A stretch of DNA of 64,000 nucleotides, from positions 52,167 through 116,166 of IMG/VR virus record IMGVR_UViG_3300042991_001118. One strand, 5' to 3'. Below are positions 28,582-55,310 of the stretch, one piece after another. This DNA comes from a virus. Each line of letters opens with the position of its first letter. Within the stretch, counting starts at the first letter, position 1. The position numbers and the translations under genes were made by a program. Under the pieces are notes generated by a model, which was given only the letters and a program-made list of their open reading frames with translations, was not told the origin of the DNA and did not search any database.

Positions 28582-29769
28582 TTACCAATATTGTATCTCT
28601 TCACCAATTCTGATCTTTAATGTTTCAGGGAAATATGTGTTGATAAGACAGTTGTCGTCTAATATCGCAATCTTTTCCTCGTTATTTTTTGTCAAAATTA
28701 AGATTTCATCTTGGTTTAGAGGAACTCCATCAACAGGGTATGCACGATAATTATCATCTCTCGGATCCATCGCGATTAACTGTCCACAAGATACCGAATC
28801 CGTGGCGAAATCGTTGACTATGTCTTCTGGCAATAACGCCAAGACAACCAATCTTAATAAGACATGGATCGGACGGACTTCCTCTGCCATCGCAATAATT
28901 TTGTCCAGCAATTTTGTCGTCAAAAATTCAGAAGAATCTTCATGTGCAGCAAAATAGACATCTAGATCTATTCTCGCAGCAGAATATGGGAATTCATCTG
29001 TAATATGTTCGTAATCTGTTTTCACGTCTTCTGTCGTCGCAGACGTGAAAGATAAGGAAAATTTTCCAGTCGCATAATTTATCTTTCCAGAACAATTCTG
29101 ACCTAACAAAGAACCATATTTTTCGTCTAGAGAATTTCCGATATCTCTTAAAGAATAATCGCTAGAATAGACGAACACACTACCAGGCTTAATTGGAAGC
29201 TTTGCAAAGAATCCAGTATACTCCGCACTGCCCATTGTTGCAAGAACTTCTTTAGTTATTTTTTCCGTTGTATATCTATGCCTGGAATATTGATTATTTG
29301 ACTCGTGAATGTTTTTTTTGTAGAGAGGAATCGGGTTGACCTTTATCCCCAATGTCCGATAAAAAGCTGTCCAAGAAATTGGCGTACCTCTCGTTTTATT
29401 TAAAGCCACGATGCTTTTTACAATTTCACGTTGCTCTATCTCTGGCTTCGACGTATCCAGGGGATACCCAAAAGATTCTGATAAATTTCGTAAAAATTTC
29501 AATGGGCATCTATCTGGGTCTATAAGGTCTGTCAGCTTAGAGATTTCCATCTCGTCATGGGTCTCTTCCTGCTCGATACCATAATATAGATTTTTTATTA
29601 CTGGAAGGAGTCCTATTTCATCCCAGAACTTACCCTCATCCCATACAAACAAAGGGTCATCCCAAAATGTTATGTTAGAATATACTCCGGTCTTTATGTC
29701 TTCTCTTATGATTGCAGGAATTAACCGCCCATACAAATCTACCGGAAGATGATTTCCAGGATTTGTCAT
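28582..29769 (-). CDS. Baseplate protein gpI-like
   Basis: A 395-aa protein of the P2 gpI tail-protein family (baseplate wedge that joins the fibre to gpJ). The N-terminal 140 residues carry the hallmark LLPVIKNLYYG, DRCPLKFLRNLSESFGYPLD and KTRGTPISWTAFYRTLG. A middle insertion (about 195-270) holds one copy of the phage-wide INYATG module, so the length is about twice that of P2 gpI. Its start overlaps the gpJ stop by four bases, as in P2/Mu-like clusters. Confidence 0.8.
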   Translation of the reverse strand: MTNPGNHLPVDLYGRLIPAIIREDIKTGVYSNITFWDDPLFVWDEGKFWDEIGLLPVIKNLYYGIEQEETHDEMEISKLTDLIDPDRCPLKFLRNLSESFGYPLDTSKPEIEQREIVKSIVALNKTRGTPISWTAFYRTLGIKVNPIPLYKKNIHESNNQYSRHRYTTEKITKEVLATMGSAEYTGFFAKLPIKPGSVFVYSSDYSLRDIGNSLDEKYGSLLGQNCSGKINYATGKFSLSFTSATTEDVKTDYEHITDEFPYSAARIDLDVYFAAHEDSSEFLTTKLLDKIIAMAEEVRPIHVLLRLVVLALLPEDIVNDFATDSVSCGQLIAMDPRDDNYRAYPVDGVPLNQDEILILTKNNEEKIAILDDNCLINTYFPETLKIRIGEEIQYW

Positions 29770-32657
29770 ATGTCTAACTCCTCAATAGTTTCAGTTAGGG
29801 ATACCACAGACAATGCAGGCATGATGTGAGATGGGACATTCAAATTTCTATATCTTGAGGAAAAATATGTATCGTAATCAATTGTGAAATTCTTTCCCAC
29901 AATGGGTTGATATGTAAGGTCTGCCTTTAAATGCCCTGTATCGTAGTCCAGATTGGAATATGGATAAGCGTTCGATAAGGTTCCAAACAGATGTCCGGAA
30001 TTCTCTGCCAAGAGAATCTTTCTAGTCGAACCAAAATAATAGCCTACTAAAGGCGTGTACAACAACAAGGTTGTCCCGATAAATACTACAGGGAAATTCC
30101 TTGATGCCCCCACAGGTAAAGCCTCCTTAAAATATACAAGACCTGTACCCGTAGAATAGTCTACAGTATTCTGTTCATGCGCATCTATATTTACCCCATC
30201 AAAATTCCCAGTTCCATTGTCATAAGCCGCATCATAGCTTGCAACAATGGTGTCTAGATATAGTTTTATCCTGCCATAATTTTCCTGAAAATTTACCTGT
30301 GTTCCGTCCTTGTCTGGGAGTGTCCAGGTTGAAAAGGTGAATTTTTTACGGATGCCATCGGGAGTTTCCTCAAGATATCCAAATCGAAATGTTTCTATTT
30401 CTGGTGCCGGATTAGTATTCCAAACAAAATTTACTTGCCCAGAATCATAGTTGATTTTTCCTCCGGACGCAACATCTCCAAGAATATTGCCTTCGCCATC
30501 ATCATACGCTAGAAGCTGTCCACCAGATTGCATACCATAATGGTCATATCCCCCAATGAACGCAACATGGTGTTTCTGGAATGGCAGATACTCTTCAGGC
30601 AAAATTAAAGAGACATCCGTTCCAGAACACAACCCAATATTCCTACGTTTTAAAATTGGGCTATATGCTGCGATAAAATCTACAGAATTTGTTTCTGGTA
30701 TCTTTAAAGACTCAACCGTATTCATTTTCGCTTCAAAACGGCATTCTGCCATGACGAATTCCGCTACACCTGGAGCATTTTTAAATGTTGCAGTAAATTT
30801 CCCGCCAAGATAATCTATTGCGTTCTCTCCACTTTCGTCTATATCTCCACCCAACGTTCCATCGCCATTGTCGGATATCTTTTGCAGTCCTCCTGAAATC
30901 GCAAAGGATTTTGGGATTATTTGTTGTCCACGAGGGAAATTGAATACGCCTTCAAATGTCGTTTTTAAAGAGGTATTTTGCCCATAATCGATTGAAGTTT
31001 TTGTTGTCCCAATGATGTTTTTAATCGTAACATGAGAAATCTGTGGAGCTTCTAATATTTTGTCTACTAGTAAGGACATCGCTAAATCCACGCCTGGTCT
31101 AACCACGGCGGAATTAAAATAGTTCTCCAATAAAGTTGATACTGCCTCCGACGCATCGGACAACGAATACCCAGATTTTAAAGCGACATCAAGTTCAATA
31201 TCAAAATAAAGAACCTCTCCATCTATAATTTCTATCGTTACACACGTGGATTTATGCGCATTCATGAAATTCAAAAGTCCATATTTCAAAGCAGAGGTCG
31301 CTTTGGAAATTCTTCCATCCGAATCTCTACTCCAAAGTGCCAGTTGTACAGTGTTCAATTCTGGAATTTTTTGTTTCAATTTAGCATGTGCAAATGATGG
31401 CGAACCATATTTTTCATCATTGTATGACATCGCCAAGACTGAATAATCCTGCGACCTTACAGCCTTTTTGGAAGTCATGGCGTATTTAGGAGCAAGAAAT
31501 TTGACCCTGTCAAAACTTTCAGCATCCTCTCCACCACTTCCAGATTCCGCATTGAATACCAAGACATTTACCCCAGAACCAGACGATATGTAACCCCTGA
31601 TCGACGTGTTGATAAGACCACGCGATATATTACCCTTCACGCCATTTCCTACACGATATGTGCATTCAATAGACGCACCTTCTTGAGGTATTCTTCCATA
31701 TGTCCCATCGCCAAAACGAATAGAAATTTTTCCATCAAGAGAATGGCTTGTAACAAATCTCTTTTGTGAACCAGAGATCAAATAGTGGACATCTATCGCC
31801 ACACCATCGCCTGGTGCCGATGCACTGTCTACATCACCAAACATTATCACGGATTCCCCATCTTCGTTTTGGTCTATCTTATACTCCATCGGAGAACCCG
31901 AAAATTCATCTACCATAGCCCAGCTTTGATTTCCGATGGAGACAGAAGGTGTATGCTCTTCCTTGTTTATTATAGCGTTGAGCAACGTCAATTTGTATGA
32001 TTGAGAACTCTCTCCATTGCCGAAAAAAATATCACTTGCTATAGTATTTCCCTCTATAAGGATGAGAGAATCTGTCTTCTCCCAAGATTCGCCATCAATT
32101 TCTATTTTGAGAGAATTTTGTAGAAAATTAGGCTGTGACAACTGAAATGTTTGGAACGGCGTACCAGATGAAATAAAGTTTTCTTTCTTAGTTTCCCCCT
32201 CGCTAAAAATTGCTATAGTTGAGTCCTCTTCTCTTGGCCAGGAAACAGCGTTCGGCGGAATAACGTAAGTTTCAATTGATTCAAAATAAAGGCCATCTGC
32301 TGTAATCTTTTCTCCTTTTTTGATAGTTATCGGAACATGCTGCGTAGGCTGTGGAGAAAATATAACAGGGACTGACGCACCCGTAGATAATCTACGTTCA
32401 TATCCTAGCTGCCTAGCCAATACCAGGATGTGTTCAGGCAACGTTGCAGTTTCTAAAAAGCTGTTCCTCGCCTGCATATCGTAATAATAAGCCCTTTGCC
32501 CATGCGCCCAGGCTACGGAATCTATCAAGGCCATACCAATTCCAGTATCAACAATCTCTGGCCAGTCCTTCGGAAATCTGATTTTAATCCAATTTATTAA
32601 AGCCGCACGGACGCTTTGAAAACTTCGATCTGTATAGGAAATTTTAGGCTCAACCAT
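29766..32657 (-). CDS. Baseplate J-like protein
   Basis: A 963-aa gpJ/gp6-like baseplate wedge. The N-terminus SFQSVRAALINWIKIRFP and DTGIGMALIDSVAWAHGQRAYYYDMQARNSFL is the typical entry. The central part has FGDGTYGRIPQEGASIECTYRVGNG, the hallmark of the family, then KKAVRSQDYSVLAMSY. The C-terminal third is extended by four copies of the INY/IDY.TG module (about 29.9-30.9 kb), absent from P2 gpJ. It is followed by the gpI gene and preceded by gpW/gp25. Confidence 0.88.
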   Translation of the reverse strand: MVEPKISYTDRSFQSVRAALINWIKIRFPKDWPEIVDTGIGMALIDSVAWAHGQRAYYYDMQARNSFLETATLPEHILVLARQLGYERRLSTGASVPVIFSPQPTQHVPITIKKGEKITADGLYFESIETYVIPPNAVSWPREEDSTIAIFSEGETKKENFISSGTPFQTFQLSQPNFLQNSLKIEIDGESWEKTDSLILIEGNTIASDIFFGNGESSQSYKLTLLNAIINKEEHTPSVSIGNQSWAMVDEFSGSPMEYKIDQNEDGESVIMFGDVDSASAPGDGVAIDVHYLISGSQKRFVTSHSLDGKISIRFGDGTYGRIPQEGASIECTYRVGNGVKGNISRGLINTSIRGYISSGSGVNVLVFNAESGSGGEDAESFDRVKFLAPKYAMTSKKAVRSQDYSVLAMSYNDEKYGSPSFAHAKLKQKIPELNTVQLALWSRDSDGRISKATSALKYGLLNFMNAHKSTCVTIEIIDGEVLYFDIELDVALKSGYSLSDASEAVSTLLENYFNSAVVRPGVDLAMSLLVDKILEAPQISHVTIKNIIGTTKTSIDYGQNTSLKTTFEGVFNFPRGQQIIPKSFAISGGLQKISDNGDGTLGGDIDESGENAIDYLGGKFTATFKNAPGVAEFVMAECRFEAKMNTVESLKIPETNSVDFIAAYSPILKRRNIGLCSGTDVSLILPEEYLPFQKHHVAFIGGYDHYGMQSGGQLLAYDDGEGNILGDVASGGKINYDSGQVNFVWNTNPAPEIETFRFGYLEETPDGIRKKFTFSTWTLPDKDGTQVNFQENYGRIKLYLDTIVASYDAAYDNGTGNFDGVNIDAHEQNTVDYSTGTGLVYFKEALPVGASRNFPVVFIGTTLLLYTPLVGYYFGSTRKILLAENSGHLFGTLSNAYPYSNLDYDTGHLKADLTYQPIVGKNFTIDYDTYFSSRYRNLNVPSHIMPALSVVSLTETIEELDI

Positions 32658-32659
32658 AT

Positions 32660-33043
32660 TTATTCCTTCGCGAACTGTAAAGTCGTTTGTTGTTGGATTC
32701 GATCATGGTCGTCTTGATCTTCATAATTTATTACGATGACAATCTTTTTTTGCTCACGCTTAATGGAAATATTCGTTACTTTAATCCTAGAATCTTGTTC
32801 TAAATCTTTTTGGACATAAAAATAGATCAAATTGATCACGGAATCCGTAATTAAATCGAATACGAGATATGGTATCCAGGAACCGAATTCTGGATTCCAA
32901 ACAACCGTACCCTTGGGTGTCGTTAAAATCAATTCTATTGAAGTCCGAAGCGAATCTCTCCGTTTTTTATTCCCAATGATACCTTTTATCGTCGTACCAA
33001 AAGGAAATGCGGCATCCGATTTTTTTTCGCTTATCTGTCCCAT
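32660..33043 (-). CDS. Baseplate wedge gpW/gp25-like
   Basis: A 127-aa protein with the GPW/gp25 pattern: helical LRTSIELILTTPKGTVVWNPEFGSWIPYLVFD (T.kGe.....fG) and terminal strand KKIVIVINYED. In T4 gp25 and P2 gpW it starts sheath assembly from the baseplate. Adjacent to gpV and gpJ genes as expected. The stop is followed two bases on by the gpJ start. Confidence 0.8.
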   Translation of the reverse strand: MGQISEKKSDAAFPFGTTIKGIIGNKKRRDSLRTSIELILTTPKGTVVWNPEFGSWIPYLVFDLITDSVINLIYFYVQKDLEQDSRIKVTNISIKREQKKIVIVINYEDQDDHDRIQQQTTLQFAKE

Positions 33044-33044
33044 A

Positions 33045-33758
33045 TTACGATCCCTTTATATTCACTGTTGCGTGTTCATCTTCTGTTGCTTGTTGCTCTG
33101 GAATCCCCGTAGTAGTCACAGTACCATCTCCTGGTATATACTTGTGAGTGTGAGAATTGTATAAATCCAACATCGCTTTCGTTAGTAATTTTTTTGCCTG
33201 TGCTTCCTGTCCTAAAATAATATTTGTACACACTAAAGTGAAAACTCCAGAAACCGTCGCTGTCAATGCAGCAGAAAACGATAGCATTGCAGCCGCAATC
33301 ACGGACATGGTAAATGTCGCTCCGAGTGTTATTTTTAACGCCATGGCCTTTAAATTCATATCCTGCGATGCAACAATGTCTATCTTCCGATTTTTATCGT
33401 CAAGCAAAAGATAATTTCCGCCAGGAGATTGTATCAGATAATTTTTTGGATCTGGGGTATACGCAATATTGGATAATTTTTCCTTATTACTTACCCAAGA
33501 ACCAATCCAAATAGGAGAATCTGTATATCCAGCGAGGAACATAATCCATATCCCAGTCCCAATTTCTGGAATCATGAAAAACCCAGAATTTTTTCCAATA
33601 AATGGAAAACATGGGAAGGCCCAGGGTAAATCAGAATTCGATATTCCATCTTGTTCTGTTCCAAAAATTTGTTCAACTCGTATCTTAACCCGTCCTTGTT
33701 GCAGTGGGTCTTTATTATCAATGACAATTCCTGGATAGATTCCGTGATAATTTTTCAA
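33045..33758 (-). CDS. Baseplate spike gpV-like
   Basis: A 237-aa protein with an OB-fold N-terminus (HGIYPGIVIDNKDPLQQGRVKIRV, then PWAFPCFPFIG, GTGIWIMFLAG) as in gpV, T4 gp5 and VgrG. The second half is beta-helix-like repeats and hydrophobic strands (MALKITLGATFTMSVIAAA), then HTHKYIPGDGT, which may bind a metal ion in the spike. No lysozyme domain is present. Encoded between gpW and the hub gene. Confidence 0.8.
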   Translation of the reverse strand: MKNYHGIYPGIVIDNKDPLQQGRVKIRVEQIFGTEQDGISNSDLPWAFPCFPFIGKNSGFFMIPEIGTGIWIMFLAGYTDSPIWIGSWVSNKEKLSNIAYTPDPKNYLIQSPGGNYLLLDDKNRKIDIVASQDMNLKAMALKITLGATFTMSVIAAAMLSFSAALTATVSGVFTLVCTNIILGQEAQAKKLLTKAMLDLYNSHTHKYIPGDGTVTTTGIPEQQATEDEHATVNIKGS

Positions 33759-34975
33759 TTTAGCCTCCTAGCCGAAATTTTAGAAGACATATCCCTTTCT
33801 GATTCTGTTGGAATATACGAATCACTTCCCTGTGCTGAGTAAACCTGTCCATCAACATTTAATGTTCCATAATTGAAAGTTTGCCTAAAGCCAGCAATTG
33901 TCGTTGTGAAAACTAAAGGATTTTCAGCAGGGCTATACTGGTATAGGATTTCATGTACAGGGTATTTCCCATTCATGCAAGAAACTCCCTTAGAATCCTT
34001 AGCCACTAATTCTACCATGTCTCCTAGTGAAATGTCAACCTCTCCGATAAGGGTAGCCTGATAGTCGAATTTCTTTTGTGCTGTATAGGAAAAAAACGCA
34101 TTGGACATCATCTGCAATTCAGAATAACTCTGTTTCCCAGTAATAATTCTCTTTATCCCCGTACCAATTTGAGAATGCATTTTTTGTGATAGAGATGGGA
34201 ATTCTCCCTTCTTTGGGGATGCATCTAGGAGTTTTTTATTTAAGATATCGTATCCGATAACATGGAGTTCAGACCCACCATTATTATCAATCTCGTCACC
34301 ATTACACGAAAAATTTATACTATCTATTCTGTCATCTCCGGATCCTATCCCGTATTTCTTACTGATTGGATTGGCGTATTTTAAAGACCTCAAAAATATC
34401 GTCCGATTCTTGACGTAAAGATATGGATAAAATGCTCCACCTGTAAATGCAATGTCTTCCCTCAAAGCCTGCAACATTTCCCAATCCGTCATGCTTGTTT
34501 GATACCATGTTCCAGAATACGGGATGTCATCCGAGTCTACTAATAACCCATATTCATTTGCTATTAAAGACAAAACGTTCCGGACTGGCATTTGAACAAA
34601 TGCACGAAATTTTTCTTTTTGTTGGAGTAGAGAACTCAAAGATTTTCCATGTACCGCAACAACAGGCGTTGTCCCATAAAAAAAAAGAGTTGTTTTAACA
34701 ACTCTAAATAATCTCCAGGCTGTTGATTGCTCAAAATTATTCTTTTTTACGGATATCTTCACGGCGTGAATTTGCTTACTGAATTGCAATTCTTCATCGG
34801 ATGAGACATTGGATGGGATGAATTGAAAATTAAAATAGGATTCTCCCGAAAGAATAGATTCCAACATCGTGAAATTGATAATTTTATCAGTATAGTCAAT
34901 TCCAATCAGTTTTGTGTCTATAAAATCCGGAACATTTAACGCTAAATTGATAGAAACAGAATTTATTTTCCCCAT
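33755..34975 (-). CDS. Baseplate hub gpD/gp27-like
   Basis: A 406-aa protein that fits the hub family: NVLSLIANEYGL (150s) and TSMTDWEMLQALREDIAFTGG are the gpD/gp27 hallmark where tube and spike meet. The C-terminus has GDMVELVAKDSKGVSCMNGKYPV, typical of the hub's second barrel. Its start is two bases before the next gene's stop, and it overlaps the spike gene by four bases, as in the P2/Mu type cluster. Confidence 0.8.
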   Translation of the reverse strand: MGKINSVSINLALNVPDFIDTKLIGIDYTDKIINFTMLESILSGESYFNFQFIPSNVSSDEELQFSKQIHAVKISVKKNNFEQSTAWRLFRVVKTTLFFYGTTPVVAVHGKSLSSLLQQKEKFRAFVQMPVRNVLSLIANEYGLLVDSDDIPYSGTWYQTSMTDWEMLQALREDIAFTGGAFYPYLYVKNRTIFLRSLKYANPISKKYGIGSGDDRIDSINFSCNGDEIDNNGGSELHVIGYDILNKKLLDASPKKGEFPSLSQKMHSQIGTGIKRIITGKQSYSELQMMSNAFFSYTAQKKFDYQATLIGEVDISLGDMVELVAKDSKGVSCMNGKYPVHEILYQYSPAENPLVFTTTIAGFRQTFNYGTLNVDGQVYSAQGSDSYIPTESERDMSSKISARRLN

Positions 34976-34976
34976 T

Positions 34977-35291
34977 TTACTGTCCCAATAATGCAGATTT
35001 AATATTTTCCAATTTAGGGATAACCAAAGGTTTCCCTGGGACTACTTCTGTATTCAAATTTTTGATTCCATTTACGTATGCAATACACCACCATAGGTCG
35101 CTATCACCATATTCTTTGAATGCTATAGTATTCAATTGACCAAGCATCCCTCTGTTGACCGTGATGATTTTCTCATCACCATCTAATCGAATGTATGGTG
35201 GATTCCACATCCCAAAAAACGCCTTCCCACTGGATGTGTACAGCGATGTCGTTTTAAATCTGGACGTGAAAGGGAGTGTTAATTCTATCAT
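34977..35291 (-). CDS. LysM-type baseplate protein, gp53-like
   Basis: A 104-aa protein with QLNTIAFKEYGDSDLWWCIAYVNGI (48-75) in the form of T4 gp53 and gpX-type LysM tail proteins, followed by VVPGKPLVIPKLENI, the end of the LysM domain. It likely joins hub and wedge, not peptidoglycan. The gene lies between tape measure-linked CIS tube protein and hub. Confidence 0.75.
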   Translation of the reverse strand: MIELTLPFTSRFKTTSLYTSSGKAFFGMWNPPYIRLDGDEKIITVNRGMLGQLNTIAFKEYGDSDLWWCIAYVNGIKNLNTEVVPGKPLVIPKLENIKSALLGQ

Positions 35292-35914
35292 GACTTCACT
35301 CCTAGCGAACTATCTGATCCTAATGGTGGAAGCGATTCTCTACAACTTGCCCGTTGCACGATGTCATACCAGTCTGAATAGTAAGATGCCACTCTTTTAA
35401 TCGATAAAGAGACCTCTGCAACTTTTGGTCTGACGGTTTCTGGCTGTAATTGAGACCATTGAATATTTACGCGTTGAACAACGCCTTGGACTCGCGTAAA
35501 CTGTCCAAACGTTACCAAAACGAATGGCGGAGAACCGACCGCCATAAATCTTTTTTCAGAAGATGATCGTCGAATCGTAGGCTTTGGGAAGGCTAATGCC
35601 TGTAGCCAACGCGCCTTATTCTCTAGGTCTATTAAGTCCTGTTCAAGATTTTGTTTTCTTTGAGCATCATTTTGTGCTGGGACTCTAGAAACATGCATCC
35701 CCGCAACGAAAACCAATTTCAAATCTAAATCTCCAAAATCTCCGCCAGAATATTGCGCCGTTACAGCTTCTGAGGCTCTTCCTCGTTTCCCACTATAACT
35801 ACAGCCGTAATTCTCGTCTAGCCCGTCAGGAGGAAATGACTCGAATGCCATTCTCTGAGTTGGATCATCAAGTAAAGCGATAGAGCATTCAATGGGTGGT
35901 CCCTGTGTCGCCAT
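35288..35914 (-). CDS. CIS tube-cap/tail protein
   Basis: A 208-aa protein resembling the conserved tube-initiation protein of contractile injection systems (Afp7/Pvc7-like). Shared features are AFESFPPDGLDENYGCSYS at the start, followed by a polar linker and FVLVTFGQFTRVQGVVQRVNI near the end, then AEVSLSIKRV. Position between tape measure and LysM gene agrees. Assignment from pattern and order. Confidence 0.6.
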   Translation of the reverse strand: MATQGPPIECSIALLDDPTQRMAFESFPPDGLDENYGCSYSGKRGRASEAVTAQYSGGDFGDLDLKLVFVAGMHVSRVPAQNDAQRKQNLEQDLIDLENKARWLQALAFPKPTIRRSSSEKRFMAVGSPPFVLVTFGQFTRVQGVVQRVNIQWSQLQPETVRPKVAEVSLSIKRVASYYSDWYDIVQRASCRESLPPLGSDSSLGVKS

Positions 35915-38197: not shown

Positions 38198-38198
38198 C

Positions 38199-39129: not shown

Positions 39130-39154
39130 TCTGTGTCCCTTTCACCTTATGCTT

Positions 39155-39757: not shown

Positions 39758-39767
39758 TTTTTACTCC

Positions 39768-42746
39768 TTAACCTGCTGGCGCAACATCGGCAAAACTTGC
39801 ATTTGTCGGTGTATAAATCATTTGGAATTCGATTTCTTCCGCAGCCTCAGCGAACTGTAAGAAAATTTTACACAAGGCTTTCTTTTGGGCAATAGAATCT
39901 GCCGTATTCGTTGTGCTGTCACACAATACCTGGAAATCATATATCCCACGTGCGGCTTTTATAGGACGCAATATACTCTCGACCATTGCTGAAATTTCAC
40001 GCCACAAAATCGAGTCGTTTAGCTCAAAGACAAAAGAACGGCCAATTCTGACAAGTTCCGCAGCAATTAAATTTGCAGTCCAACGGGAATGTATCCTATC
40101 CATCGATGTGGCTTTCCTCGCCATGGTATTTTCACCATACAGATAAATTCCATCACCGATAAACTCGACGATAGGATTGACAACCTCTATGTTGTCTCCA
40201 TACAGCCCTAGCATGCGTTCTCTCTCACCCTCATCTGGTGAATACCGGAGATCATCGACGTTGATATTCCCACGACCAATTCCGGACATCGGATACCATG
40301 GTTTGAACTGGATGTCAATTCGGGCCATCAATGCTAAAATATCTCCCTCAGGAGGCTCCCAGACATTTTTGTCTGAATACTGGTCGTAGTAATTTAGCCA
40401 GCCATAGAAACACATTGCCTGGTCTGAATTGATAGAGGCGAGAGGAGGATAAGGAACATCTGCCATAGGGATTGCTGAACCACCAGGTGTAATGGCATTG
40501 TATTCTCCATTCACGAAGGCTTTTGCATTATCACTATGCGGCAAATCCGGAATAGAGAAAATCCACATCCCTCTTCTGGCTTCCATCATCTCAATTCCTG
40601 CCAATTGTATCTGTCGATGGAATAGCCCTGGAGCCGTAGCGACATGTAGTGGCACTAATTCTGGATTAGCGAATAACTGTAATCCAGTCGAAACAGCTTC
40701 GATTTTTGTCCCAATTACATCCGACAACGTAAAAGCCCCAGACATCCCAATCTTTTGTCCGACGTAAGAATCATAGGAGACATCAGGTTCGCCCTGGAAA
40801 GCAGTTTCTTCCAATGTGATATACCTGGAACCATTTTCAGAATCATTCACTGTTTCAACTAATTCCTTCATGGTTTTCAAGCTATCAAAAGTTTCAATCG
40901 CCGTGGTTCCGGATCCATGGTTAAACATAACTCGTAATCGATACCATTGTGAAGATTCAGGGTCTTCTGGCGAGGATTCGCTTTTATCAATCCAAACGTA
41001 TAGTCCATCTGACAATATATCTCTCTCGTTTCCAATCGGACCAGGATATTTACTCGTGCTATGCAAAACTATTGCGTCTGAATAAATTTGGATAGGGTAA
41101 GCCAACGCGGGTGCGCCTATAAACGTGATAGAGAATTCTCCTGTGTTGTAATCAATCGAACCCGAACCACCAGAACCCTCAATATTCCCATCCCCATCAT
41201 CTACTAACGGAGATGTTCCGACTGCATAATAAATTTCTAAAGAACCAAGCTTTACAGGATATTCCTCAAGTGTTCCAGAAAACTCTAAGGTTGTTGAATC
41301 GCCATAAAAAACCGTCGCATGTCTGAAAAACGCATCATATGATCCGCCATCTTCTAGTCCAGGGATGTAATCTCCAAGTGTCACAAAAGTGTGTACCAAC
41401 GTCCACGAACCGGTTTGGTAATTTAAAGCACCAATAACCGAGCTTCCAGATAGAACGCCAGTGCCATCATCTCGGACAAAAATGTCATATCTCGCGATGA
41501 TAAGGGCTAAATTCTTCACGTTTGAGTTGAACTGGAACGCCACGGAACCACTTTGGTAATTGATGGTGCCAGGAATCGCCACATCTCCACTAAAGGTGCC
41601 ATCGACTGCATCTGTCGCGGTCATTTCGATAGAAGATGTGTTTAAGGCTTTTATACTCAAAGAACCAGGCTTAATATTCGCTCCCAAATTTATCGCATAT
41701 GAAGCCGATGCTCCATCGCCGATATCGCATTGATCTTTACGGGGAACCAAAACCGTAAAAAATCCTGGACGTATTCCATTCCTAGATATTATTCCAGAAT
41801 AACTCAATTGTGTAGACGACGTACTCCCAATAATTTCATTCGTTCCACTCTTATAGGAGACTATAATATTCGCGGTCGGCGCAGCATTGAATGTGACAGT
41901 CCAATCTCCTGTTTCGTAATTTATCCTGCCTGTACCACCATCATCTCCTGTTAAAATCCCTAGTCCGTTATCCGTAAAAGATTCGGCAGGCGTGGCGGTG
42001 CTTATTGTAAAAGTCCCTGGAGCAATCACCCTACCTTCGGAACGGGAAAATTCTAATTCCGTGTTCGCTGGGATTGTATAGCCCCAAGAATTCCTAGCGG
42101 AAATTCCTCCGGAAGATGAGCTACTTGATTTAGATGACGCGAAGGCACCATCATTTCCACCATTCAGCACCATTGGAACCATAACACCAGAAATCGGATC
42201 CAATGTCGAATCAGGGAACAACGCACCAGCATCTTCATGAAGTTCAACCGTGACATATGAAGGGGATGCGTTCATCACGTTCTTTATCGTAGAATTCGTA
42301 AGGTTAATAAATTTTTGTACTGGTTTGTCCAAAAAATAAATGTACACGTTGTATGAAGTCGCTGGACTTCCATTATGCGTAATGTTGATTTTTACCTGCC
42401 CGTTTGCCCAGGTACCAGCAGACGCTGCCTTAAACGTGATAATTGGGATATTCTGTCCAGAAACAACTTTGTATTGCGATACCGACGCGTATTCCAACAA
42501 GGTACCAGCGATGCGAATCGCATTGAGCCTATTCCCATATCGCAAATATCGTATTCCCGCACACACCATGTGTTCGCCATCTATTGGGCGACCAAAGGCA
42601 GAAACTAAATTACCCTCATCTGTAAAGGTAAGCCGTTGGTTCACTGGACCCTTGGCCGCCGCACCAATTATCCCAACAATTGCGTTAGAATTAGCTGGCG
42701 CGTACGCCGATAGGTCAAATTCTCGTACTTTAACTCCTGCAACCAT
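39768..42746 (-). CDS. Tail sheath protein
   Basis: A 992-aa contractile sheath. The N-terminus VREFDLSAYAPANSNAIVGIIG, AAKGPVNQRLTFTDEG and FGRP is standard for sheath proteins, and the C-terminus AARGIYDFQVLCD with EFQMIYTPTNA is the conserved handshake end. Between them, residues 258-555 carry four copies of the INY/IDY.TG module (see findings), making it about 300-400 aa longer than simple sheaths. A Ser-rich linker (KSSSSSSGG, about 205) precedes them. The modules are probably outward-facing decorations. Confidence 0.9.
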   Translation of the reverse strand: MVAGVKVREFDLSAYAPANSNAIVGIIGAAAKGPVNQRLTFTDEGNLVSAFGRPIDGEHMVCAGIRYLRYGNRLNAIRIAGTLLEYASVSQYKVVSGQNIPIITFKAASAGTWANGQVKINITHNGSPATSYNVYIYFLDKPVQKFINLTNSTIKNVMNASPSYVTVELHEDAGALFPDSTLDPISGVMVPMVLNGGNDGAFASSKSSSSSSGGISARNSWGYTIPANTELEFSRSEGRVIAPGTFTISTATPAESFTDNGLGILTGDDGGTGRINYETGDWTVTFNAAPTANIIVSYKSGTNEIIGSTSSTQLSYSGIISRNGIRPGFFTVLVPRKDQCDIGDGASASYAINLGANIKPGSLSIKALNTSSIEMTATDAVDGTFSGDVAIPGTINYQSGSVAFQFNSNVKNLALIIARYDIFVRDDGTGVLSGSSVIGALNYQTGSWTLVHTFVTLGDYIPGLEDGGSYDAFFRHATVFYGDSTTLEFSGTLEEYPVKLGSLEIYYAVGTSPLVDDGDGNIEGSGGSGSIDYNTGEFSITFIGAPALAYPIQIYSDAIVLHSTSKYPGPIGNERDILSDGLYVWIDKSESSPEDPESSQWYRLRVMFNHGSGTTAIETFDSLKTMKELVETVNDSENGSRYITLEETAFQGEPDVSYDSYVGQKIGMSGAFTLSDVIGTKIEAVSTGLQLFANPELVPLHVATAPGLFHRQIQLAGIEMMEARRGMWIFSIPDLPHSDNAKAFVNGEYNAITPGGSAIPMADVPYPPLASINSDQAMCFYGWLNYYDQYSDKNVWEPPEGDILALMARIDIQFKPWYPMSGIGRGNINVDDLRYSPDEGERERMLGLYGDNIEVVNPIVEFIGDGIYLYGENTMARKATSMDRIHSRWTANLIAAELVRIGRSFVFELNDSILWREISAMVESILRPIKAARGIYDFQVLCDSTTNTADSIAQKKALCKIFLQFAEAAEEIEFQMIYTPTNASFADVAPAG

Positions 42747-43463: not shown

Positions 43464-43479
43464 GGCCTATATTCCAGTC

Positions 43480-44679: not shown

Positions 44680-44689
44680 GAATTTTCCT

Positions 44690-45250: not shown

Positions 45251-45260
45251 GCTGTGCCTT

Positions 45261-45682: not shown

Positions 45683-45685
45683 AAT

Positions 45686-46435: not shown

Positions 46436-46438
46436 TTA

Positions 46439-46885: not shown

Positions 46886-46886
46886 T

Positions 46887-47399: not shown

Positions 47400-47400
47400 G

Positions 47401-48144: not shown

Positions 48145-48710
48145 AAAGGATGCTCCCCTTTAATCGGGTATTCCATCGGAGATAATGGTGTCCCGGTACC
48201 AACAGAATCCACTCTTAATTGGGTTGCATCGCCTTTCCATGTAACATATCTCTCGACAGGCGCGTAATATCTATCTGGGGCTAATTCGTGAATTTCATAA
48301 AGCGTATTGTTCCATTGATAAATATCCCCAGGGATTGGAAGATAGAATGAAAAATCTAATTTGGCATCATGCATTTTAAAAACTTCGCCTAGCCGAATAC
48401 ACTCTCCCAGGTCTATTCTGATTGAATGCTCAATCACGTCCTCAACACCTGATTTCTCTAATGGCTTTTTTGCACTTCCAACGTCTAATGCCAAATAAAT
48501 CGCGATAGGAGAAGAGTATTTTCTCTTAGAATATCCACTGCTTCTAAAAACAGACTCTTGCCCACTCTTTTCTATTTCAAATCTCCAAAACCAGATAGGC
48601 AACATTCTTCTCGCAGACATAATTTGAGTTCGGACTACATGCTCAAACATATGATCTGCTCGATACGCCCACATTCCATGTATATTTAAAATAGAAGAAA
48701 GTGTTTTCAC
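48132..48710 (-). CDS. Putative neck or stopper protein
   Basis: A 192-aa protein. GDIYQWNNTLYEIHELAPDRYY and YAPVERYVTWKGDATQLRV have the beta-barrel rhythm of head-tail stopper proteins, and size and position between neck and head completion genes agree. Assignment is mostly by order. It overlaps the gene upstream by 4 bases. Confidence 0.45.
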   Translation of the reverse strand: MKTLSSILNIHGMWAYRADHMFEHVVRTQIMSARRMLPIWFWRFEIEKSGQESVFRSSGYSKRKYSSPIAIYLALDVGSAKKPLEKSGVEDVIEHSIRIDLGECIRLGEVFKMHDAKLDFSFYLPIPGDIYQWNNTLYEIHELAPDRYYAPVERYVTWKGDATQLRVDSVGTGTPLSPMEYPIKGEHPLWVL

Positions 48711-48922
48711 GTCTTGAATCCTTCAAAAAGGTCGATCCAATACTGACATCTTTGATGGTGAATCGGCAAAAGTTTTTCTTTCAATTCCTGGGCATTTTGC
48801 AATAATCTTGGATTTTGTGTCGCTAAAACCTTGGGGATAATATTTTCGCTTTCGCCTTCGTGAAGAATAATTTTAGTAACCCAGGAGTAAAAAGATCTAG
48901 CCAATGCAAGTTGATTTGCCAT
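48707..48922 (-). CDS. Hypothetical small protein
   Basis: A 71-aa helical protein (LARSFYSWVTKIILHEG, LQNAQELKEKLLPIHHQ). Located between two head completion genes; may be a connector subunit or chaperone. Unrecognised family. Confidence 0.5.
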   Translation of the reverse strand: MANQLALARSFYSWVTKIILHEGESENIIPKVLATQNPRLLQNAQELKEKLLPIHHQRCQYWIDLFEGFKT

Positions 48923-48930
48923 ATGAACCT

Positions 48931-49662
48931 CTAAAAAATAGGCTTTGGCGGCATATGCCGCAAATTCTTATCTAGTTTTTTTTCTATCTCTTCAATGGCC
49001 TTTTCGCCCTCATTTTGGAGTTCATTACCATCTAAAGAAACATCACCACCAGCCGTGGGAATTGCTCCAAATTTTCTCAATTTCCTACCTAATGGCCTTT
49101 TAGCATACCCGACGGCACACTCCAAAAAATCAATTTCTAGAGAAAATGGAATATTTTCAATCGTCATTGGGGTTAAAAATAAGGCCGTCGCTAAAACCCC
49201 ACCAACATTGGCACAATTCGTGATAAATAGAGTCCTGGTCTTCTCATCCCAATGCCAGGTAGGCTGTATGCCGAGAAACGAGCTATACCTATCGTCAGCT
49301 TGTAATCTCTGGAAAACACGGCGTGGTTCACGAATACCCCAATACTGATCTGGCAGAGGATGATGGAATGGACGATAAAAATGATTGTGATGATTCTGAA
49401 ATTTTACATCCACCACACGTGTTCCCTGTTCCTCCATGGAGCAATCAAGTCTTAAATCCTGCGTTAAATGTCCGAGAGGTTTCCATCGCCATTCCGGATG
49501 GTATTTGTTAAATAGTGATAGAGCACACGCGATTGCATGATCTATATCTTTTTCAGACAATTCCTCGTTCCACGCAAATCCTCCGAGTGACATGACTATT
49601 TTCTCACGCCATTCTGAGAGCGTTTTTGATCTTGCACTTGTTGGTGGTGGAGTATTGTTCAT
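48931..49662 (-). CDS. Head completion protein, neck-like
   Basis: A 243-aa protein with an N-terminal helix pair SLGGFAWNEELSEKDIDHAIACALSLFNKYHPEW, the pattern of T4 gp13/gp14 and head-tail adaptor proteins ('ID.AI..AL..Y..Y'). The central part has paired strands and VFLTPMTIENIPFSLE; the C-terminal 50 residues are helical. It sits between a capsid-neighbour gene and small connector genes. Confidence 0.6.
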   Translation of the reverse strand: MNNTPPPTSARSKTLSEWREKIVMSLGGFAWNEELSEKDIDHAIACALSLFNKYHPEWRWKPLGHLTQDLRLDCSMEEQGTRVVDVKFQNHHNHFYRPFHHPLPDQYWGIREPRRVFQRLQADDRYSSFLGIQPTWHWDEKTRTLFITNCANVGGVLATALFLTPMTIENIPFSLEIDFLECAVGYAKRPLGRKLRKFGAIPTAGGDVSLDGNELQNEGEKAIEEIEKKLDKNLRHMPPKPIF

Positions 49663-49665
49663 GGC

Positions 49666-50070
49666 TTACTTCTTCTTCTTTACGATTTCTTCGCCAGACT
49701 TTTTCAAAGCCCATGCTTCTTTAATCCATTGTTCAGGCTTTATTCCATGCCTTTCTTGCCTGACCTCTTCCATTTCAATCAAAGTTTTTGCGGAGCATTT
49801 GCAACAAAGTTGTAATCGTGGAATTTTATGCACAATGACTAAATCGACGAAGTTTTTCCCACGTAGTCTATCGCCCTTCAACATCCGTACCGTAGTATTG
49901 TTGTTCTTACCCGAAGGTAACAGATATGGAGCATCCCCTAAATTTATGACCATATTTTCTGGACATTTTGTCGGGTCTGTCTCATAGGAAACTTCTTCTT
50001 CCTGTGCCTTTTCTGTATCAGCATTCAAAACGATTACATCCTCAGATTCTATTTTTTTTGAACTTACCAT
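49666..50070 (-). CDS. Hypothetical protein downstream of MCP
   Basis: A 134-aa protein with a acidic disordered N-terminus (EDVIVLNADTEKAQEEEVS), central beta-rich part, a CCKC cluster near residue 90 and a basic Lys-rich end. May be a capsid-associated or packaging helper protein. No family assigned. Confidence 0.5.
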   Translation of the reverse strand: MVSSKKIESEDVIVLNADTEKAQEEEVSYETDPTKCPENMVINLGDAPYLLPSGKNNNTTVRMLKGDRLRGKNFVDLVIVHKIPRLQLCCKCSAKTLIEMEEVRQERHGIKPEQWIKEAWALKKSGEEIVKKKK

Positions 50071-50090
50071 TTTACGTCCCTTATTTATAC

Positions 50091-50112
50091 CCCACCCGCA
50101 GCGCGGGTAGGG
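50091..50112 (-). promoter_or_regulatory. Intercistronic hairpin after capsid gene
   Basis: ACCCGC and GCGGGT (50094-50099 and 50103-50108) form a GC-rich stem with a 3-nt loop, extended by three more G-C pairs beyond a bulge. It lies between the major capsid gene stop and the next SD. No U-tract follows in the transcript (GGGGUAUAAAU), so it is more likely an mRNA 3'-end stabiliser or partial terminator that raises capsid protein levels. Confidence 0.45.
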
Positions 50113-50122
50113 CGATAGAAGA

Positions 50123-51568
50123 TTACAAATTGATAACCTGGATTGTCCCCATCATCTCTGCATTCATAACGTGAATGGCATACTCAGTAAGCATTGCAGC
50201 GTCTTTGTGGAATCCCTTTTGATGAACTGGAGATTTGTAAAGCGGAAGATACATTCCAACAGTCGCGGCTGTGTTAAAAATTTCCATCCCTCTAAATGTC
50301 AGGACTGCTGATCCCCCTGGAAAACTAGGATCGGCTATGCAAAGAATATTGTGCTCAGACAAAGTACCAACAATCTTTGGACCAGCCAATGCATCGCTTT
50401 GCCCTGGGGTACCTTCGCCCTGGAATCCTTTGGTGTGTTGGAACAAGAACCAGATATCAGGAGAAAGAACACAAACGTTTGGCCTTACCTTTTGTGTATG
50501 TTGCCAAATCTCATGCTGTAGTCTTCCCAACATTATACCGAACGCGTCAATGTGCTCTCTGTAAGTCAATGCAGGAGGTGTGGCGTTGTCAAAAACAAAA
50601 GAACCACCAGATGCCTTCCGGTACAAATGATTGACTACATGTCTGAACTTCTCAGCCGTGATGATCTTTCCACCAGCATCTAGTATGGTAGGCTCCGCAT
50701 CAATGCCCCAGTCGTTAATCAAATCGACAACCGCTTGATGTGACCACTCTGTCGATATTGCCCTTGGCAATGCCTCTACTTGGACACCACGCAACGCGAT
50801 TCCATACTTAGGATATTCCGTAGCAGCCTCGATATTGTATCCATAATTAGCCTCTACGTTTCCTGTAGTGGCTGCCGCAAATTGCAATGAAACATCACCT
50901 GTGACGTAATTGACAGTGTTCGTTATTCCACCGCCACCTGCTCCAACATCTCCAATCAAGTTTCCATTCCCATCATCCTGTACAACTTGATTTCCATCCG
51001 TGATTTCCACGGAACGTGGAAGGCAAGGTCTATATTCTAATCTGACAACATAATCCGTCGCACCAATCGCACCAATTGGCTCCCCATTGATTTTGTGAGA
51101 TCCAAAATCCTCAGTACCAGCAAAGCCACGGAGCGCATCAAACATGTGCAGCCCAGCAGGTATTCGTCCTTTGGCTTTCTCTGTCTGAATATCTAGGTAG
51201 TGAATTTTTCCACTTCGGCTTTGTAAAGGCTGTTCTGAAATGACTTTATCCGTCAAATCGTCAGCCTGGCTCGTCGTGATTAAAGCAAGTCCAGTCTTTA
51301 CCCATTTTGGGAGATCGGCACGCGATGTTTCGTCTAGGGAAGCCTTTGTTTCTCTGACGAAATTTTCGCAAAGAATTGCCACCTTCGTCATCTTATAGTC
51401 GTTAGAATTTCCGCCCAGTGGAGCCAAGACGTTCATGGGCCTTGTTATTCCTAGCGAATCGTCCGTGAAATTTGAAAAGTGTTCGACAATGTATTTGTTT
51501 GTTGTGATAAATTGATCTTCGGAATACGAAGGTCTAGAGGGTTCTGTTTTCTTAGATTTGATAAGCAT
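50123..51568 (-). CDS. Major capsid protein
   Basis: A 481-aa protein directly downstream of the prohead protease. N-terminal TRPMNVLAPLGG and central YGIALRGVQVEALPRAIS, and C-terminal DAAMLTEYAIHVMNAEMMGTIQVINL fit T4 gp23-type capsid proteins. One INYVTG-type module (about residues 197-245) is inserted in the middle. The length is near that of gp23. SD GGAG precedes the ATG. The HK97-fold call rests on order and general pattern, but I am fairly sure. Confidence 0.8.
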   Translation of the reverse strand: MLIKSKKTEPSRPSYSEDQFITTNKYIVEHFSNFTDDSLGITRPMNVLAPLGGNSNDYKMTKVAILCENFVRETKASLDETSRADLPKWVKTGLALITTSQADDLTDKVISEQPLQSRSGKIHYLDIQTEKAKGRIPAGLHMFDALRGFAGTEDFGSHKINGEPIGAIGATDYVVRLEYRPCLPRSVEITDGNQVVQDDGNGNLIGDVGAGGGGITNTVNYVTGDVSLQFAAATTGNVEANYGYNIEAATEYPKYGIALRGVQVEALPRAISTEWSHQAVVDLINDWGIDAEPTILDAGGKIITAEKFRHVVNHLYRKASGGSFVFDNATPPALTYREHIDAFGIMLGRLQHEIWQHTQKVRPNVCVLSPDIWFLFQHTKGFQGEGTPGQSDALAGPKIVGTLSEHNILCIADPSFPGGSAVLTFRGMEIFNTAATVGMYLPLYKSPVHQKGFHKDAAMLTEYAIHVMNAEMMGTIQVINL

Positions 51569-51604
51569 AATTGCGTCTCCAACGAAATTCTGTCCAGTGA
51601 AAAT

Positions 51605-53380
51605 CTATTTTCTAGATTTATGATCGGCCAGCCTTGTAAAAATATCTGGCACAGTTTTCACTCTACCTGGTTCGTCGGTGACGTGTGAGGCAGGTTTTAA
51701 CGTAGTCTCAACTAACTTTGGTTTAGATATAGTTTCATCCATAGGGACACCCTTACGGCGTTCTTTTACAACCATGGAAGGTTTCTTACGAAGGGCTTGA
51801 AGCAAAGCACTAGTTGTTTCTTGAAGTTTTGGCAACGTTTTGCATTTAGCTAAAATAGACCTGAACTCATGCAGTTCGGGAGTCTTCGCTAAAATACTTC
51901 CCAGTTCAAATCCAGTTACTTTTTCTTCAAAAATCTTTGCCATCTCAGTATTTATTATTTTAAGATTTGTGTTCTCGTTTTGCAAGAGCAAATTTTTCTT
52001 TCTTAGTGAAGAAATTTCTTCCTGCAATGATTTTTGGTATTGATTTTGTGCAACGCTTCTAGACTTTATAGATTCATTCCTTCCCATTTCTTTTCGTAAT
52101 GCACGTCTATAGGACTCGGTGGTTGGTTCGACGATAGTTTCTGGAGGAAGAGACGATTGCGGTTCTTCTGGTGCCTGGACATTATTTAACACTGGGATAG
52201 TAGCGTCAACCACAGGAACACTCGAAGCAGCCGGACTAACAGCAAAAATTGTACACAAAATGCCCTGCACAGCCTCTGGCGTGGCTGATTCATTTTTCTC
52301 TAGCTCTAAAGACAACTCAATAACATTGTCCTTCCACAACGCCACAATCTCTTTCGGGGCTAAATTCCTAGACGACAATTCTGACTTTATCAAGACCACA
52401 AGAGTTTCTAGACTTTCCCCAGGACGAAAAAGATTAAATTTCTTTTTGATATCCTCTCCTAATGCATCCAACGCGACACTAAAATTCGTAAGGAAAGTTA
52501 CCTTCGTCGTCGCTACGGCTGTGTCTACAGATGGAGGAGTGTCAATAGGTGTTGAAATAGGAATCTCCTCTTCATACATTCGACCATTTCGATATACGAC
52601 CTTTTTCGATCGTTTCATCACGCTATCTCCTATATTACGTTTTGTGTGCCGGACAAGAGTTTTCAATGTCTCCACGAGCAAACACAATTCATTTTTCCTA
52701 GAACTACGCTCGGCCAAAAATTTAGCATCGCTTAACCGAGGATCCCATGTCGGATTCCAACCTTCTTTTGTAATTTCTTCCTGTAAAGCACTTAGCTTCT
52801 CATAGCACAACTCGGCAGCCTCCTCTTTACGAACGGCATCCTCTCCGAGTGTATTAAGAGTTTTTTGCAAACTCTCGTGCAGCACTGCGCCAGGAGTAGA
52901 TGGCTCGGCTACTAAATCAAACGTCTCAGGCTCAAAATCCTCCATTACTTCGTCTACACCCGAACCTAAACGTTTTGTGCTTCCGTGCGCTCTGGATGAA
53001 ACTCCTATAGAAAGACCATCCTCGAACAACGCAGCCGCCGTTTTCCCCGCTTGTGTACGCAAAGTCTCTAACGTCCCCCATATCTCTCCATTTTCTTTTA
53101 GCTGCAAATCCGTAATGATAATAGCCGCCTCTTTAAGGTCCGGTCTTCCATCTTTAGGATGCTCTAGATGCCCCCATACACTCCTGGCTTTTATGGCACG
53201 CATAAATGGGCTATCCTCTTTGCAATGCCTTTCCCAAATATGCCGTGGATATATCCTGTTATTTTTGTTTACGACACCACAATGCTGAAACTTTCCACGG
53301 ACTCTCACTTTTCCGTCTGCTAACTTTGTAATCCCCTCCTGTAACATCTGCAAAGGGATTGTGTCTTCCAAAAGCAGCAT
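51605..53380 (-). CDS. Prohead protease fused to scaffold-like tail
   Basis: A 591-aa protein from the ATG at 53378-53380 with SD GGAGG. The first 170 residues match T4 gp21-type prohead protease: NKNNRIYPRHIWERH (39-53), VWGHLEHP with His74, SIGVSSRAHG with Ser128 or Ser129, and VAEPSTPGA. The next 420 residues are a mixture of disordered Pro/Thr-rich and coiled-coil stretches (KSLQEEISSLRKKNLLLQ), similar to scaffold proteins. The protein thus may serve as protease and core. The protease would cut scaffold and capsid proteins. A coding overlap of 122 bases with the next gene is unusual. Confidence 0.8.
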   Translation of the reverse strand: MLLLEDTIPLQMLQEGITKLADGKVRVRGKFQHCGVVNKNNRIYPRHIWERHCKEDSPFMRAIKARSVWGHLEHPKDGRPDLKEAAIIITDLQLKENGEIWGTLETLRTQAGKTAAALFEDGLSIGVSSRAHGSTKRLGSGVDEVMEDFEPETFDLVAEPSTPGAVLHESLQKTLNTLGEDAVRKEEAAELCYEKLSALQEEITKEGWNPTWDPRLSDAKFLAERSSRKNELCLLVETLKTLVRHTKRNIGDSVMKRSKKVVYRNGRMYEEEIPISTPIDTPPSVDTAVATTKVTFLTNFSVALDALGEDIKKKFNLFRPGESLETLVVLIKSELSSRNLAPKEIVALWKDNVIELSLELEKNESATPEAVQGILCTIFAVSPAASSVPVVDATIPVLNNVQAPEEPQSSLPPETIVEPTTESYRRALRKEMGRNESIKSRSVAQNQYQKSLQEEISSLRKKNLLLQNENTNLKIINTEMAKIFEEKVTGFELGSILAKTPELHEFRSILAKCKTLPKLQETTSALLQALRKKPSMVVKERRKGVPMDETISKPKLVETTLKPASHVTDEPGRVKTVPDIFTRLADHKSRK

Positions 53381-53654
53381 TTTTATCCTCCAATACTTCA
53401 AATGTTCCATTACTCCTGTATAGGATATGGCAATGGAGCTTCAGGCAATCTAACATCTCCATGCCATTTTTTAAATGCAAAATATAAGCAGTATCCCTTG
53501 CATTGTCTAAACGCAAATAATAAGTGTCTGACTCTTCAAACTTCTCATCCGGTATTTGCAAGACAATGCGATTCTTATTCTTCTCTGGATTATAATGAAA
53601 ACAAACAATGCTAAATTTTGCTAAACTTTCCGGTGGCTTTAAATTACTGTTCAT
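53259..53654 (-). CDS. Hypothetical protein with long overlap
   Basis: A 131-aa protein from ATG 53652-53654 (MNSNLKPPESLAKF). Body is beta-strand rich (RIVLQIPDEKFEESDTYYLRLD, ILHLKNGMEMLDCLK) and looks like a compact folded domain. The last 40 residues overlap the start of the prohead protease. The gene fills an otherwise empty gap. No function can be given. Confidence 0.5.
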   Translation of the reverse strand: MNSNLKPPESLAKFSIVCFHYNPEKNKNRIVLQIPDEKFEESDTYYLRLDNARDTAYILHLKNGMEMLDCLKLHCHILYRSNGTFEVLEDKNAAFGRHNPFADVTGGDYKVSRRKSESPWKVSALWCRKQK

Positions 53655-54504
53655 AATCCCAGTTGACCGAAATACTTGACTGGTCTTCTTTCCCATCAGA
53701 TGCATATTCGTACGACACTAAAATATTCGTGCCATTCTTGGGAACAAAATCTGGCGAAAAATGGAGTACACCCTTGCCTGTCCTGTAATCTATCAAACTC
53801 TCTTTGTCATTTAAGGCAAAAAATTCAGTTGGAACAGAACCAAACTTTCCATATCCATTATCTCGTATTCCATCTAAATATGTGTCCGACGATCCCGTAA
53901 AAGTGATCTTTATCGATGATGGACATATTGGAGCATTCGCTAAGGAAAAATTAAATTCTGTTTTTGTCCCATCTCCAATTCCCAATACCTCGTCAATAAT
54001 ATCGGAATCATATGCCCTTCTGATTTTCAACACAGGGGTTTTTAATGGTTTAGAACCAGAGGCGTAAATAATCAGTGTTGTCGTAGAATAAGCACATGGA
54101 AGTTTTAATCTATTTCCGACCAATAATCCAGCATCTCCTAAGATAGAAATGTCCGATCCGTTCCAGGCACAAACCTGTACAGCGTGAAGGATTGGAATAT
54201 CTTTATAAGATGTGCTGCTAGCAGTTCTCTTTTGCACCAACGTTCCCAATCCTTTATCAAAATTTCTAATCTCAAGCTCTTTGGTGTCGTATTTGTAAAA
54301 AAATGGAGGTAAGGCGGATTCACATCGGACGTAACATGGGAAGCGGTTCGATTCTGCTGGTTGAATATTGATACGAATTGGGCGGAACCCAACAATCGGA
54401 TGTAAGACTAGACCCTTTTCCCATAACTGGGTAAAAACAACCTGTGGAATATTTGCGCCCAATCGGCCTTCTTCACTACTACTGTGAACTACCGTCGTAT
54501 ACAT
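53644..54504 (-). CDS. Structural protein with INY module
   Basis: A 286-aa beta-rich protein. The C-terminal half has KTEFNFSLANAPICPSSIKITF followed by DNGYGKFGSV, IDYRTGKGVLHFSPDF and ILVSYEYA, a clear copy of the module found across the virion. N-terminal half has LHPIVGFRPIRINIQ and no known domain. Likely a capsid decoration or core-associated protein in the head gene cluster. Confidence 0.6.
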   Translation of the reverse strand: MYTTVVHSSSEEGRLGANIPQVVFTQLWEKGLVLHPIVGFRPIRINIQPAESNRFPCYVRCESALPPFFYKYDTKELEIRNFDKGLGTLVQKRTASSTSYKDIPILHAVQVCAWNGSDISILGDAGLLVGNRLKLPCAYSTTTLIIYASGSKPLKTPVLKIRRAYDSDIIDEVLGIGDGTKTEFNFSLANAPICPSSIKITFTGSSDTYLDGIRDNGYGKFGSVPTEFFALNDKESLIDYRTGKGVLHFSPDFVPKNGTNILVSYEYASDGKEDQSSISVNWDYEQ

Positions 54505-54515
54505 CGTATTCTCCT

Positions 54516-54559
54516 AAAATCTCCACTAGGACAATAGCGTTCTAGTGGAGATTTTTTTT
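54516..54559 (-). terminator. Hairpin, possible attenuator
   Basis: Arms AAAATCTCCACTAG (54516-54529) and CTAGTGGAGATTTT (54542-54555) pair over 14 bases with a 12-nt loop. On the plus strand it would be a strong terminator with a run of eight T. On the coding minus strand only four U follow the stem, so it is probably a partial terminator or 3' stabiliser after the 250-aa structural gene. Confidence 0.55.
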
Positions 54560-55310
54560 AGTTGTTATGGTAAGGATATCCTGTGATCTCACCCTTTACG
54601 AGAACCGTTCCGACATGCGAATCATCTCCAAAATAGGAAACACAAAGATTCATCGTGGTAGATGGGTCTCCAGAAGTTTTCTTTTGAGCAAAAAATCCGA
54701 TCTCTTCCTGATCTTTGATTCCATCGATATAATTCTCGGCACCGTCTGGATAGACAATAACACTGCGTCTAGCTCCACCGCTAGATACATCAAAACCAAT
54801 TGGTGTCGTAAAATCGGACCAATCAGAATGTTTGTATCCAGATGAAACAGGCAACGTAACGGCATTATAAAACGTAAAATCAATTTTCCCTTCGTTATAA
54901 TTTACCGTTCCGACTTTCATTGGATATGTCGGTCCAACTGGTCCATTCGTTTGCCACAGGACTCCATCGCCATTGGTGTCTTCTACTCTTTGCGGAACAA
55001 CGGCATTCGTATCGACAATCACGACTGTCTGTGGAACAATTCGACGATTCTCGAAAATTCCACGGAATCTATCTGATGCAGCGACTCTCAAAGTTGTAAT
55101 AACCTCTGCCGGAATGGTGGAAACCACTCCTCTTTTTTTCAAAGAAAAAGTCAATACTCCACGTCCAGTGTTTTGGATATCAAAACCTTGTAATTGTTTG
55201 CAGCTAGGGAATGGCATCCTGGCGATGCATCGAGGGACAACATCATTTACTCCAAGCCCATTCATTTCCGCAGATTTATTCATGTATTCAGACATTTTAA
55301 TATCTACCAT
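54558..55310 (-). CDS. Structural protein with INY module
   Basis: A 250-aa protein. After a helical N-terminal part it has DTNGDGVLWQTNGP, then GTVNYNEGKIDFTFYNAV, one copy of the repeated virion module, and a second half with YPDGAENYIDGIKDQEEIG. Situated in the head gene cluster before the 286-aa relative; likely a capsid-associated protein. SD GAAAGG precedes the ATG. Confidence 0.55.
   Translation of the reverse strand: MVDIKMSEYMNKSAEMNGLGVNDVVPRCIARMPFPSCKQLQGFDIQNTGRGVLTFSLKKRGVVSTIPAEVITTLRVAASDRFRGIFENRRIVPQTVVIVDTNAVVPQRVEDTNGDGVLWQTNGPVGPTYPMKVGTVNYNEGKIDFTFYNAVTLPVSSGYKHSDWSDFTTPIGFDVSSGGARRSVIVYPDGAENYIDGIKDQEEIGFFAQKKTSGDPSTTMNLCVSYFGDDSHVGTVLVKGEITGYPYHNN

Follow-up and report, generated by a model that had tools for sequence, protein, structure and literature searches.

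Promiscuous Ig-like domains are small β domains found in several unrelated virion proteins of tailed phages. A second kind of added domain, the insertion domain of the capsid protein, has a published role in the capsids of P1, T4 and phi29, where it bridges neighbouring molecules (PMC12810830, PMC3185693). The insertion domain (I-domain) of P1 is rich in β-sheet; it projects from the capsid and touches the P-domain of an adjacent capsomer, without cement proteins (PMC12810830). Structural similarity to the insertion domains of the T4 gp23/gp24, N4 and phiKZ capsid proteins was reported by the same authors (PMC12810830), and the T4 capsid proteins likewise carry an insertion domain (PMC3185693, PMC12810830).

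The window analysed here, a stretch of 64,000 nucleotides, corresponds to bases 52167-116166 of a 116,166-base IMG/VR virus record and belongs to a T4-like contractile-tail phage. A motif search covered all six frames of the window and was combined with a reading of its open reading frames (ORFs) and with a profile built from twelve copies of the motif. Profile searches place about 13 copies of a β-sheet module of ~60 residues in seven proteins, one of them a doubtful fourth copy in the J-like baseplate protein. The strands of the module lie around PGSxxI, xDDG, GxLxG, GxINYxTG, xxxxF and xxIxxY, and conservation is highest at Gly, Asp and Tyr. All six virion proteins named in the preliminary description are recovered by the twelve-copy profile, together with a seventh that it had missed, ORF 4525-4953 on the minus strand. 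The proteins that carry the module are the following.

39768-42746, minus strand: tail sheath protein, 992 aa (phrog_23, E = 5.9e-63; Phage_sheath_1C; match to T4 gp18 in the PDB)
29766-32657, minus strand: baseplate wedge J-like protein, 963 aa, modules C-terminal (phrog_219, E = 1.3e-39)
28582-29769, minus strand: baseplate protein with a Tail_P2_I domain (I-like), 395 aa (Tail_P2_I, E = 7.4e-7)
50123-51568, minus strand: gp23-type major capsid protein (MCP), 481 aa (Pfam Gp23, E = 3.5e-15)
53644-54504, minus strand: head-cluster ORF, 286 aa, one module
54558-55310, minus strand: head-cluster ORF, 250 aa, one module
4525-4953, minus strand: ORF of 143 aa with a Pro/Lys-rich tail, one module, outside the virion cluster

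The MCP scores 56.7 bits against Pfam Gp23, above the cut-off of 24.4, and the two head-cluster ORFs match no named family. ORF 4525-4953 lies near genes that, by eye, are a putative thymidylate kinase (5063-5758) and putative DNA methyltransferases (2418-3119 and 6024-6923). Elsewhere in the window, two adjoining minus-strand ORFs (25664-26161 and 26177-27298) appear by eye to have in common a C-terminal domain of ~100 residues, FGGSGD.(S/A)RTVSINLT ... SYGDH(V/I)H.GTYW, which, judged from its sequence, resembles a fibre-tip or receptor domain that has been duplicated.

Because a profile recovers its own members in any case, leave-one-protein-out profiles were run, as was an external profile whose 50 module copies all come from other phages, neither the window nor its close relatives contributing any. 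Every protein is still recovered by the profile from which it was omitted, with E-values of 3.6e-24 for the sheath, 1.5e-19 for J, 2.8e-11 for I, 3.1e-10 for the MCP, 0.0025 for ORF 54558-55310 and 0.015 for ORF 53644-54504; the leave-out runs detect ORF 4525-4953 with E-values between 1e-6 and 2e-3. The external profile recovers seven of the seven proteins at E-values from 1e-46 to 0.004 (sheath 1e-46, J 4e-21, MCP 8e-15, ORF 54558-55310 3e-8, I 4e-8, ORF 4525-4953 2e-5, ORF 53644-54504 0.004). Controls in which all 677 window ORFs were shuffled 20 times or reversed reach an E-value of 0.08 at best, and a search of the whole 116,166-base record gives no protein beyond the seven at an E-value of 0.01. 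The individual copies are listed here with their external-profile E-values, except where another source is given.

41844-42026, minus strand: sheath module copy 1, E = 4.6e-19; strand order from AlphaFold2
41478-41675, minus strand: sheath module copy 2, E = 1e-11
41340-41525, minus strand: sheath module copy 3, partial, E = 3.7e-5; orthologous in L003, L075 and L078
41070-41255, minus strand: sheath module copy 4, E = 4.2e-13
30732-30920, minus strand: J-like baseplate module copy 1, E = 9.8e-9
30369-30557, minus strand: J-like baseplate module copy 2, E = 3e-8
30078-30275, minus strand: J-like baseplate module copy 3, E = 6.7e-4
29868-30035, minus strand: J-like baseplate module copy 4, doubtful, E = 9e-13 solely with a profile containing the copy itself
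29002-29193, minus strand: module in the Tail_P2_I-like baseplate protein, E = 1e-7
50834-51025, minus strand: module in the gp23-type MCP, at the insertion-domain position, E = 1.9e-14; AlphaFold2 model; P1 gp23 in register
53701-53928, minus strand: module in ORF 53644-54504, leave-out E = 0.015, external E = 0.0042 for the whole protein
54825-55040, minus strand: module in ORF 54558-55310, E = 7.9e-8
4690-4890, minus strand: module in ORF 4525-4953, E = 2.8e-5

The motif is therefore present at its described places in the six virion proteins, as the leave-out and external profiles and the controls bear out. The earlier count of about 12 copies stands for the four copies of the sheath, three of J and the single copies; it does not for the fourth J copy, which reaches E-values of 3.5 and 12 with independent profiles, the latter with the external one. 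The first strand of sheath copy 3 is also the last strand of sheath copy 2, so that the two overlap, and the module of ORF 53644-54504 has its nearest copy, in the tree described below, in the relative L059.

The fold of the module was predicted with AlphaFold2. For the 353-residue sheath insert the model (mean pLDDT of 73.0) is all β, with an identical strand order in each copy, and the MCP copy agrees with the four sheath copies in this order. The proposal first made from the motif, that otherwise unrelated virion proteins have a homologous β domain in common, is supported. The MCP model has a mean pLDDT of 54.4. The module (residues 161-240, pLDDT of 84-91) is its sole long stretch above 80, the model being poor elsewhere. 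Fold matches in the PDB and in BFVD, a set of predicted viral structures, were taken as local, within multi-domain chains, because the TM-scores are low and the r.m.s.d. values large. With that reading, the sheath modules match in BFVD, among others, a tail sheath (E = 5e-8) and major capsid proteins (E = 1.9e-5 and 3.8e-4). Searched against the PDB with foldseek, the sheath model gives nothing significant, and its matches, with probabilities below 0.4 and r.m.s.d. of 15 Å and more, were set aside.

For the MCP model, the only PDB match below an E-value of 0.001 is chain A of entry 9ukm, a P1 head protein (E = 2.7e-5, probability of 1.00); the alignment spans 389 columns at an r.m.s.d. of 20.6 Å and is thus a local match only. 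At the sequence level, a profile of the window copies matches residues 233-292 of the same chain (E = 8.7e-4), and a broader module profile does so more weakly (E = 0.026). The name Gp23 of this entry was at one stage taken for a T4-type gp23; this was dropped, as the chain is absent from the MCP-profile matches and tblastn of the matched stretch identifies it as the product of P1 gene 23. Alignment of the MCP family with P1 gp23 by hhalign extends over 342 columns (probability of 90%, E = 1.5e-6). The module falls in register in this alignment, ahead of a similar stretch and then the spine helix. The capsid module lies just ahead of the long spine helix of the HK97 fold, the place of the I-domain, and does so also in the gp23-type relatives that bear it. 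It agrees with the P1 type of I-domain in being inserted before this helix and in its β-rich, P1 gp23-like fold, the latter as a local match. Residues ~205-302 of P1 gp23 (PDB entries 9ukm and 9vl4) resemble the window MCP in sequence profile, fold search and position. This stretch is probably the P1 I-domain, a correspondence that we infer because the published description gives the domain without residue numbers (PMC12810830).

P1 has the module in its capsid protein, whereas the phage of the window has it also in sheath, baseplate and small proteins; the P1 sheath, gene 22, gives no significant module match. The insertion domains of T4 gp23/gp24, N4 and phiKZ occupy the same region of the HK97-type capsid protein as the window module (T4 gp23 was aligned). 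No copy is recognizable by profile search in T4 gp23 or gp18, so other sequences can occupy the I-domain position.

In the window sheath, the match to T4 gp18 covers residues 3-79 and 781-988, and the modules lie at about residues 240-560, flanked by the N- and C-terminal parts of the sheath core. We take this stretch, from the domain layout of gp18, to correspond to the part of T4 gp18 that carries its outward domains. An alignment also indicates that an ordinary sheath domain is seemingly present twice, at residues ~103-200 and 563-660, on either side of the modules. Independent insertion of modules at differing points of the sheath is not claimed here, because of this apparent duplication of the flanking domain.

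Scans of Pfam, NCBIfam and PHROG assign no domain name to the module. The label Ig-like, used in the preliminary description, is not supported: Ig-like profiles (Big_2, I-set and similar) match none of ten copies up to an E-value of 1, and structure comparison with the PDB gives no significant Ig match, the models being partial and the alignments spanning several domains. The module resembles the promiscuous Ig-like domains as a small β domain in several unrelated virion proteins, but differs from them in matching no Ig family or fold and in having old and conserved positions. PHROG 6128 (1200 positions, annotated as of unknown function), whose member L040 carries several module copies, matches five window proteins; it describes a separate large protein and not a domain. 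The C-terminal half of Pfam DUF2460 is matched weakly, along the same stretch of the profile, by several module proteins of other phages (E = 2e-4 to 2e-3), all below the Pfam cut-off, and this family is at most a candidate homologue of the module.

A consensus query returned 46 IMG/VR loci, and a profile search of the fetched loci and the window finds the module in 78 distinct ORFs. Outside the window it occurs in gp23-type capsid proteins, sheaths, J-like and I-like baseplate proteins (phrog_219, phrog_48), PHROG 6128 proteins and proteins of ~200 residues, and at least four module-bearing proteins occur in each of several other phage records. Among isolated phages, most matches are in annotated major capsid proteins (QdP_Psa3, SP-15, the Maribacter phages Colly and Molly, and Rhizobium RHph_TM phages), and a profile check confirms the module in QdP_Psa3, SP-15 and Colly_1. 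The same query returned nine loci from bacterial and archaeal genomes. In Bacillus phage SP-15 (L099), the major capsid gene is annotated as two joined pieces with an endonuclease gene between them, which suggests that this module-bearing gene contains an intron. Six loci of other phages (L022, L016, L021, L023, L026 and L031) have ORFs of ~200 aa with one module in a head-decoration-like frame; three of the ~200-aa module ORFs match no Pfam family at an E-value of 0.05.

In a tree of 98 copies, those of the sheath, the capsid and two of J group with copies of relatives that occupy the equivalent position, although many deep forks are unresolved. Sheath copies 1-4, the MCP copy and two J copies pair by position in phages whose sheath and capsid proteins are ~50-67% identical. 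Because copies from different phages group according to host protein and position, the spread of the module within the virion, judged from these sequences, probably predates the divergence of these phages and was kept vertically; a recent spread does not agree with this grouping.

The homology of the copies, the shared strand order of those modelled, the capsid position, the local fold match to P1 and the conservation of position are observed here, and they are best explained, with a probability that we put at about two in three, by a single homologous family of β domains of the I-domain type that braces the capsid and forms outward knobs on sheath and baseplate. By analogy with P1, the capsid module would be an outward-facing knob that braces neighbouring subunits. 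The domain is present as well in the outer part of the sheath, in the J-like and I-like baseplate wedge proteins and in small proteins that are virion components or accessory, and on the outside of sheath and baseplate it would most likely add bulk or contacts. Both the bracing in the present phage and the roles on sheath and baseplate are inferred, as the most likely ones. The opposite reading, that the copies are non-homologous and that a generic β-hairpin signature (a Gly-rich turn, then INYxTG) arose repeatedly, could draw on the shortness of the domain and its few invariant residues (Gly, Tyr, Gly); the leave-one-protein-out and external-profile E-values, the shuffled controls and the shared strand order strongly disfavour it, and we consider it very improbable.

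Two other readings accept homology and differ in function. The module may be an adhesion domain: its many copies on head, sheath and baseplate would each bind a glycan or another surface polymer weakly, and together they would help to keep the phage near its hosts. Surface decoration as such is plausible by analogy, since the P1 insertion domain protrudes outward (PMC12810830); moreover, a chitin-binding-like character has been ascribed to the T4 capsid insertion domain (PMC3185693), the head fibers of RcGTA bind the host capsule (PMC7296036), and the curated GTA head spike fiber model (NF048003) matches the capsid module weakly (E = 0.037, below its cut-off). That model was nevertheless rejected as a family for the module, with 14.6 bits for the MCP against a curated cut-off of 36 and nothing in the record at an E-value of 1. 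Neither carbohydrate-binding nor Ig-like families match the module, and its most conserved residues, Gly, Asp and Tyr, look like turn or core positions, so that adhesion appears unlikely, if the least so of the alternatives. Somewhat less probable again is that the module is a spacer, neutral or selfish, which recombination carries from one virion gene to another and which has no common function. The presence of the module in many otherwise unrelated proteins would fit such a spacer, as would the frequent sharing of domains among unrelated phage proteins (PMC10684548), but its positions are kept in orthologs at ~50-67% identity, which argues for selection at each place.

The module links a domain from a solved capsid protein with the tail sheath and baseplate in viruses of the same kind, at ~13 places in one phage. 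It has no Pfam model; a profile of it would help to annotate many uncharacterized virion proteins and would allow a test of whether a single bracing domain serves phages in both head and tail. A further idea, which we regard as doubtful and slightly less probable than the spacer, is that the modules on capsid, sheath and baseplate recognise each other or a shared partner and form a common virion interaction layer; if so, head stability and tail behaviour would be tuned by one fold.
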